Below, piece after piece: positions 35,823 through 35,986 of a stretch of 64,000 bases of DNA. Below the pieces are notes generated by a model. That model saw nothing but the letters and a program-made list of their open reading frames with translations. It did no database searches and was not told the DNA's origin. The DNA is from Myxococcus hansupus (GTDB lineage Bacteria; Myxococcota; Myxococcia; Myxococcales; Myxococcaceae), in contig NZ_CP012109.1 of the NCBI RefSeq assembly GCF_000280925.3, positions 1,116,001 to 1,180,000 on the forward strand. The letters are read 5' to 3'. Position numbers and translations under genes: made by a program. The stretch's first letter is position 1; each line of letters opens with the position of its first letter.

Positions 35823-35852
35823 AGCCCACCAACCCTCGCGGGTGGATGGGCT
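35823..35852 (-). terminator. Attenuator-like hairpin in the metY leader
   Basis: On the minus strand the arms AGCCCATCCACCC and GGGTTGGTGGGCT form a 13-base stem (one U-G pair, one mismatch) capped by a GCGA tetraloop and followed by TCGTCGTTTCTGG. It lies 57 bases before metY. The 3' arm sequence GGTGGGCT recurs exactly inside the upstream leader peptide (35902-35910, GGTGGGCTC), so the 5' arm can pair with either copy. The two structures exclude each other, as expected for attenuation. Confidence 0.5.
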
Positions 35853-35880
35853 CGGTGGCTCGCCAGGGTCGGGACGGACG

Positions 35881-35931
35881 TCAGCCGAACCTGGAGGGCA
35901 TGAGCCCACCCGGCATCGACATTCGACACAT
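35881..35931 (-). CDS. Met-rich leader peptide upstream of metY-metX
   Basis: A 16-residue open frame, [16 protein letters not shown], with four Met and one Cys, ending in TGA 115 bases before metY. It begins about 20 bases after the predicted transcription start. An in-frame ATG at 35949 would add six residues (MTSLNA) but coincides with that predicted start. Methionine is otherwise rare in these proteins, so 4 of 16 is striking directly before methionine genes. No clear Shine-Dalgarno is visible, which is the main weakness. It probably acts as a regulatory sensor, not as a functional peptide. Confidence 0.45.
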
Positions 35932-35957
35932 GGCGTTTAGCGACGTCATCGCATCAA

Positions 35958-35986
35958 CGGATAAGCGGTCGTCTTCCGGGAGTCAA
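35958..35986 (-). promoter_or_regulatory. Sigma-70-like promoter for metY-metX
   Basis: On the minus strand TTGACT (35981-35986), a 17-base spacer and TATCCG (35958-35963). Transcription would start near 35950, giving a leader of about 185 bases before metY. It is the best promoter match in the 283-base gap between metY and the NTF2-like gene. Confidence 0.5.

Follow-up and report, generated by a model that had tools for sequence, protein, structure and literature searches.

The metY-metX genes of Myxococcus hansupus are most likely controlled by a ribosome-mediated transcription attenuator, in which a short Met-coded upstream open reading frame (uORF), leaderless by the position of its promoter, would act as the sensor. 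The genes lie on the minus strand of the window, by which we mean the whole stretch of 64,000 nucleotides analysed here (contig NZ_CP012109.1, positions 1,116,001 to 1,180,000), and coordinates below are window positions unless a genome and contig are given. Taken together, comparison with relatives and in silico folding indicate that this is a real, conserved and very probably functional Met-codon attenuator, and a paralogous set of leaders in which Cys codons take the place of the Met block provides the most telling comparison.

Leader, promoter and hairpin at the metY-metX locus

The elements referred to in the text are as follows.

35981..35986, minus strand: -35 element TTGACT, read directly
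35958..35963, minus strand: -10 element TATCCG, read directly; the same site reads TACTTC or CATCTT in relatives
35881..35949, minus strand: leader ORF of 22 codons, leaderless by promoter position, stop UGA at 35883-35881; start-promoter distance fixed in relatives
35914..35931, minus strand: control codon block AUG UGU CGA AUG UCG AUG (Met7 Cys8 Arg9 Met10 Ser11 Met12), kept across genera
35904..35910, minus strand: segment a, GGUGGGC, within the ORF; predicted antiterminator 5' arm and a copy of the terminator 3' arm d
35860..35865, minus strand: segment e, UGGCGA, in the inner antiterminator helix or, when paired with the tail, an extension of the terminator stem
35840..35853, minus strand: segment c, putative terminator 5' arm GAGCCCAUCCACCC, from direct reading and folding
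35822..35835, minus strand: segment d, putative terminator 3' arm GGGUUGGUGGGCUU, after the GCGA loop; compensatory changes in the Cys-class homologue
35813..35821, minus strand: tail CGUCGUUUC with a moderate U content; GUCG unchanged across 16 metY leaders
35769..35805, minus strand: hairpin enclosing the metY Shine-Dalgarno GAGGAG (CCUCG..CGAGG in the window), from minimum free energy (MFE) folding
34476..35765, minus strand: metY, O-acetylhomoserine sulfhydrylase (TIGR01326, 659.7 bits against a cut-off of 495.1; Pfam PF01053)
33107..34426, minus strand: metX-like homoserine O-acetyltransferase (best NCBIfam TIGR01392, E 1.3e-66, 225 bits, below the cut-off of 500), beginning 49 nt past metY

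A preliminary description of the sequence had proposed a Met-codon peptide attenuator at this site, and conservation, folding and Cys-coded paralogues support that reading, with corrections. Read directly on the minus strand, the promoter TTGACT-N17-TATCCG (35986-35981 and 35963-35958), the frame 35931-35881 then taken as 16 codons, the hairpin with its GCGA loop (35839-35836) and the 57-base gap between 35823 and the metY ATG at 35765 are all as described, and both copies of the repeat are found, GGTGGGC(T) occurring in the frame (35910-35904) and again as the hairpin 3' arm (35830-35824). The start of the frame, however, very probably lies 18 nt further upstream, at ATG 35949, giving 22 codons. 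We prefer this ATG because its promoter distance is the one that is kept: TTGAC(A/T) stands 37-41 nt ahead of the leader ATG, counted from its first base, in all 84 parsed leaders, the parser having looked for the ATG 30-52 nt from TTGAC in 31 leaders and 35-42 nt from it in 53, with leaders lacking TTGAC excluded. Promoter-like elements lie upstream of the frame in each of these 84. ATG 35949 follows the -10 element by 8 nt, so the absence of a Shine-Dalgarno sequence, correctly noted before and then counted as a weak point, is explained if the uORF is leaderless and needs none. Besides its start, the 22-codon leader contains Met7, Met10, Met12 and Met17, together with a single Cys; it has no Cys-codon run, unlike its paralogue in the same genome (L184, below).

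The arms of the hairpin carry one C.U mismatch and one G.U in 13-14 positions. The T-rich tail described earlier is present but only moderate, with seven T in the 12 bases after GGTGGGC, and a strict consensus scan of 35600-36200 picks out neither promoter nor terminator. The leader RNA folds at -90 kcal/mol (z = -3.99), and none of 200 shuffles is equally stable. The earlier impression that there is no SAM riboswitch agrees with the Rfam scan of the window, in which no riboswitch, SAM or T-box, matches at the gathering threshold; when the limit is relaxed to E 10 over 35740-36060, only one unrelated weak match comes up. A DUF4440 gene at 36049-36420 lies immediately upstream on the same strand.

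Conservation among relatives and Cys-coded sister leaders

A search for metY at E ≤ 1e-100 gave matches in 46 of 96 family genomes, four of them among the 27 of the genus, and 45 upstream regions were examined, G078 being a gene fragment and left out. A simple parser recognises leader and hairpin at 31 of these 45 loci, with the ATG 37-39 nt from the first TTGAC base in 31 of 31, and the ATG just behind the -10 opens a readable frame in the 16 metY leaders that were aligned. The other loci comprise one with the leader only, two at contig edges, two with a SAM-I/IV riboswitch, five with diverged Met/Cys leaders (L038-L041 and L045) and four (L042-L044 and L046) at which inspection by eye and the ORF list recognised no such leader. 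Leaders of the two genomes whose loci end at contig edges (L013 and L019) are found on other contigs (L221 and L220) and are hence counted as metY-type. The SAM-I/IV riboswitch, assigned by Rfam, replaces the leader at metY in G068 (L032) and G080 (L037), two of the 14 loci of the phylum that were scanned. As a separate observation, both of these riboswitches are followed by tiny ORFs, MCRCYLP-stop at L032 and MMCHPLN-stop at L037, placing riboswitch and Met/Cys ORF together. At L011 (G053) the leader is there and the terminator hairpin is absent, reflecting either a deletion or an assembly gap.

A covariance model (R1) built from the 31 parsed metY leaders identifies, with E-values no higher than 2.4e-15, Met-type leaders in 57 of the 96 genomes of the family, among them all 27 of the genus. 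At E ≤ 0.01 the number of family genomes rises to 60, the three extra being Cys-type (G059, G075) or a chance match (G061), and across the phylum R1 matches 61 of 195 genomes at E ≤ 0.001. Matches at L193, L197 and L200 were also judged to be chance, that at L197 overlapping a tRNA-like sequence, and seven short matches were left out, six of these lying antisense to the same hairpins, the seventh in G065 (C2). In the 23 congeners that have no metY match at E ≤ 1e-100 (e.g. L185, L186 and L187), the leader precedes a metX homologue in all 23. The remark that such an attenuator would be unusual in a myxobacterium was thus an understatement, given a leader present in every genome of the genus that was searched and the existence of a Cys-coded sister.

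The 84 parsed leaders consist of 33 metY-type (the 31 plus L220 and L221), 23 metX-type and 28 Cys-type; L191 and L195, which have a Cys-type ORF with no TTGAC promoter, and L242 stand outside this set, while L198, L199 and the duplicate L222 are omitted from alignment A4 and retained in the 84 and in A8. ATG, frame and UGA are constant in 84 of 84. Met codons and hairpin are both kept among relatives, with segment a invariant in alignments A2 (31 rows) and A3 (38 rows) and variable codons between the AUGs of the control block across genera. Leader codons 2-6 change freely and nonsynonymously, with no third-position excess, i.e. no codon-periodicity signal of translation; a codon-position test should tell little where only the control codons ought to matter. 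As far as these alignments go, the peptide itself is not conserved, which is what an attenuator, but not an arrest peptide, would lead one to expect. The same unconserved N-terminal codons, and the negative strict scan, are what one would expect of a chance ORF beside a constitutive terminator-like hairpin, yet conservation across genera, the fixed start and the match of Met or Cys codons to the downstream pathway already appear to contradict such a reading, and we give it practically no chance.

Weaker R1 matches have the same a/c/d architecture, with 2-5 Cys codons replacing the Met block in the same place (28 parsed loci). The Cys leader of the M. hansupus genome itself (G000:C1:2449017-2449153, L184) lies outside the window, encodes MTCSTHPTCCCCPASAVGVRPPVA followed by a stop, has a U-tailed hairpin, and precedes genes for a sulfate-binding protein (TIGR00971) and CysT (TIGR02139), both above cut-off. 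The gene after the 28 Cys leaders is a sulfate-binding protein homologue in 16 cases, a porin in nine (homologues of L196, Porin_O_P, with a sulfate-binding protein visible behind in four of the nine stretches) and another ABC binding protein in three (L189, Peripla_BP_2, and its homologues at L225 and L229). Two further Cys-rich leaders, L191 and L242, precede DUF4395-type genes, the latter assigned by N-terminal similarity to L191. The runs of Cys codons ahead of the L189, L225 and L229 genes and of the L191 and L242 genes suggest sulfur-linked roles there. Hairpin compensation in nine aligned Cys-class sequences amounts to eight cells against 0 of 500 shuffles, and two pairs show double changes, a count equalled or exceeded in 210 of 500 shuffles; alignment A7 comprises nine of 47 distinct hairpin sequences, those of one length.

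This codon swap is regarded as the strongest evidence, from sequence comparison, that codon identity would be the sensor rather than an RNA aptamer. An undescribed SAM- or methionine-binding riboswitch, with the ORF incidental, would account for the strong conserved fold and for the stretch GUCGAAUG, invariant in 16 metY leaders, and SAM riboswitches govern metY elsewhere. It would leave unexplained why paralogues carry Cys codons in the putative sensor region with the downstream switch unchanged, why start, frame and stop persist in every parsed leader though codons 2-6 vary, and why the leader of L047, from another family of the phylum, is a Cys-rich ORF whose RNA sequence is unrelated. In view of these points, and of the Rfam result given above, we consider a riboswitch very unlikely.

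Competing pairings and the proposed switch

Four segments take part in the attenuator that we propose: a in the ORF, b with the inner strands near the stop codon, and the two terminator arms c and d. AUG 35949 would be the transcription start or follow it by a few bases, and translation of the leaderless uORF would begin immediately. Under a shortage of Met-tRNA, a ribosome stalled at Met7 or Met10 would leave segment a (GGUGGGC) free to pair with c, the terminator 5' arm; inner stems would nest within this helix, and RNA polymerase would continue into metY-metX. When methionine is ample, the ribosome would reach UGA 35883 and cover the inner strands together with the surroundings of a; formation of the long antiterminator would then be blocked and c:d would end transcription. 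The direction of the switch, previously considered a weak point, is resolved in silico by the nested pairing of the ORF segment with the terminator 5' arm.

We modelled the state in which the ribosome sits upstream and d is yet to be transcribed by folding only the stretch that begins with a and finishes with c. In this state a pairs with c, and a:c is the MFE structure in 83 of 84 leaders, with mean z of -4.8 for metY, -4.9 for metX and -3.0 for Cys types (60 shuffles each). The energy of the a-to-c hairpin in the 31 metY leaders ranges from -39.6 to -50.0 kcal/mol, compared with -12.7 to -21.0 once the strands around UGA are masked. For complete leaders in which the ribosome occupies UGA, P(c:d) averages 0.99-1.00. 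A stall at one or more of the Met/Cys codons gives P(a:c) > 0.9 in 33 of 33 metY-type, 23 of 23 metX-type and 25 of 28 Cys-type leaders; in the M. hansupus leader, P(a:c) is 1.00 for a stall at Met7, 0.84 at Met10 and 0.00 at the last Met before a, and across the set a stall at the last Met codon gives P(a:c) > 0.9 in only one of 33 metY-type and none of 23 metX-type leaders. In L202, L214 and L006 this last Met is replaced by Lys, as if dispensable, which fits with a stall at that codon covering a.

A hairpin within the ORF, a:b (GGUGGGC-N4-GCCCGCC), that would reverse the switch was considered and dropped, P(a:b) before d being 0.00 in 31 of 31 leaders. If a is left open and only the b side masked, P(a:c) before d is still 0.79-1.00; termination in the methionine-replete state therefore rests on steric and kinetic arguments, including an inferred kinetic order of folding, since masking of the b side alone leaves a:c able to form. 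With no ribosome the mean P(c:d) is 0.95 for metY, 0.79 for metX and 0.99 for Cys types, and the M. hansupus leader (P(c:d) 0.15) and L003 favour a:c instead.

RNAalifold, applied to 38 distinct Met or 25 Cys leaders, finds a:c alone, as the inner region is poorly alignable across clades. In clade-wise alignments the long hairpin is present with no compensatory antiterminator pair, a, c and d being nearly invariant there. Concerted changes of a, c and d occur in L242 (GGCGGGC/GCCCGCC/GGCGGGC) and L199 (GGUGGGU/ACCCACC/GGUGGGU), and a:c is kept with other letters in L047 (AAGGUGG/CCACCUU) and L038 (CCCGGGCA/UGCCCGGG). With d added, the MFE structure shifts to the terminator in L242 and L199 and remains the antiterminator in L047 and L038.

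The spacing around the stop codon bears on a different reading, that of a TnaC-like arrest peptide whose nascent chain would respond to Met or SAM from within the exit tunnel, halting the ribosome either at one particular codon or on reaching UGA. In 56 of 56 parsed Met-type leaders the distance from the end of segment a to UGA is 17 or 20 nt, at which a UGA-held ribosome would just free a, and there is some C-terminal likeness among the peptides, with P-A-x-G before the stop in many leaders, and a Gly-Gly and Pro-rich end. The C-terminal codons, however, fall in a and b, where RNA pairing accounts for the conservation; the residues ahead of the Met block are not conserved, and the Cys- and Met-coded versions have no visible common peptide core. 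An arrest peptide is thus, in our estimation, a highly improbable explanation.

At metY the conserved, putative terminator hairpin has a mean energy of -22.6 kcal/mol, with 4-7 T in the 12-nt tail. The mean number of T in this tail is 5.5 for metY-type and 6.5 for Cys-type leaders, and more U-rich tails are found in the Cys class, L047 and some Acidobacterial loci. The modest U-tail of c:d could be taken to mean that control of metY is mainly translational, through the Shine-Dalgarno hairpin at 35805-35769, with a stabilising or Rho-related role for the upstream hairpin, and indeed the MFE structure has four or all five bases of GAGGA paired in 15 of 16 short-UTR metY leaders, with a partner that is not constant. 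Against this, the same leader stands before metX in the 23 congeners, in genera g5 and g6 some 160-200 nt separate the leader hairpin from metY downstream, and it is the homologues in the Cys class and L047 that have the more U-rich tails. The odds that translation is the main level of control are accordingly very slim; the predicted metY Shine-Dalgarno hairpin possibly provides a second, translational layer on top of the attenuator.

Wider distribution and relation to known systems

To look beyond the family we scored short ATG ORFs ahead of metY by the highest number of Met/Cys codons within ten consecutive codons, with 40 dinucleotide shuffles per locus. At least four Met/Cys codons in 10 are found at 27 of 43 family loci (two of 45 being too short), against 0.4% of shuffles; at 1 of 27 other loci of the phylum, against 0%, the remaining 26 being without; and at 14 of 78 loci of other phyla (two of 80 too short), against 0.8%. 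The single case from another family of the phylum, L047, has the ORF MHACPSIPVVSVRIDGISCCRPCCHSRKVVPSVG with its stop, then AACCCACC..GGTGGGTTTTTTT. Hairpins follow the leader stop by 15-26 nt at the Acidobacterial loci L091, L125 and L151 and at L076 from Lentisphaerae, none of which has a SAM riboswitch match; the tails are T-rich in L091, L151 and L076 and weaker in L125. In the three Acidobacterial leaders the ATG stands 6-7 nt behind a -10-like GATACT or TATACT, and the antiterminator alternative folds for L125 and not for L151. Eight of the 14 loci from other phyla, seven in Bacteroidota (L117, L123, L133, L140, L149, L150 and L152) and one in Ignavibacteria (L102), have a SAM-I riboswitch in the same stretch as the Met/Cys ORF, making dual control possible there. 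Naville and Gautheret (PMC2965389), in the part of that study available, indicate that almost no predicted Acidobacterial attenuator has a function.

On balance we favour a broader picture in which one cassette is reused in myxobacteria, with a Met block before metYX, a Cys block before sulfate uptake genes, and retention on metX where metY is missing, and in which leaderless uORFs coding for Met or Cys, each followed by a terminator, regulate metY across Myxococcota, Acidobacteriota and further phyla, in Bacteroidota partly combined with SAM-I riboswitches, so that Met would be a broadly leader-attenuated amino acid. The element offers a candidate regulator for the methionine and sulfate genes of the family and a searchable signature for Acidobacteriota, and the natural Met/Cys codon swap in one genome is a ready-made controlled experiment on attenuator specificity.

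Known means of methionine control in bacteria are the repressors MetJ, MetR and SahR, SAM riboswitches and T-boxes. A Met-codon attenuator would add to these controls; in the open-licence papers searched, a scope outside which most subscription papers and preprints fall, none was recognised. Sensing of elongator Met-tRNA by a leaderless uORF would be notable because methionine also supplies initiation, and the switch has to operate when initiation, too, may be limited. SAM-I, SAM-I/IV and SAM-II riboswitches share the target metY, and the window differs in having no such aptamer. The metXZ element of beta-proteobacteria, with six conserved regions and a pseudoknot, is described in an account of methionine control in Proteobacteria (PMC4239095) and, in the sections available, resembles the present leader as an RNA element before metX or metZ with a possible terminator/antiterminator; terms beginning 'attenuat' or 'Myxococc' and the term 'leader peptide' are absent from its text.

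Closer in form to the Cys-class sister are the leaderless poly-Cys uORFs of mycobacteria (Canestrari 2020, as relayed in parts of PMC9031893 and PMC13236596) and the Actinobacterial Cys leader peptides of Seliverstov 2005 (PMC1262725), the available portion of which gives these as having no terminator hairpins and the Actinobacterial methionine operons as having no conserved RNA structure. From what these sources contain in those parts, both systems share with ours a short uORF with runs of sulfur amino acid control codons, leaderless in mycobacteria; they are described as translational or as lacking a terminator hairpin, whereas here a terminator-like hairpin follows a Met-coded leader before metY-metX. 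The uORFC-8-2 motif upstream of cysS in Rhodobacterales (PMC8632094) combines a Cys uORF with a terminator and is predicted to act by ribosome-mediated attenuation; it differs in gene and lineage and in having two tandem Cys codons, and the portion of that paper available names no Met form.

The classical ribosome-mediated attenuators are the trp, his, leu, thr and phe leaders. The metY-metX leader is like them in having codons for the end product in a leader ORF, an alternative between a predicted antiterminator and a putative terminator, and, in the model, read-through upon stalling. It differs in that the codons are for Met (and some Cys), the uORF looks leaderless, and segment a copies the terminator 3' arm and pairs with c. 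The proposed mechanism is that of classical attenuation, already known, and what is new, as far as the open-licence papers searched show, is the amino acid, Met, and the leaderless, codon-swappable form.
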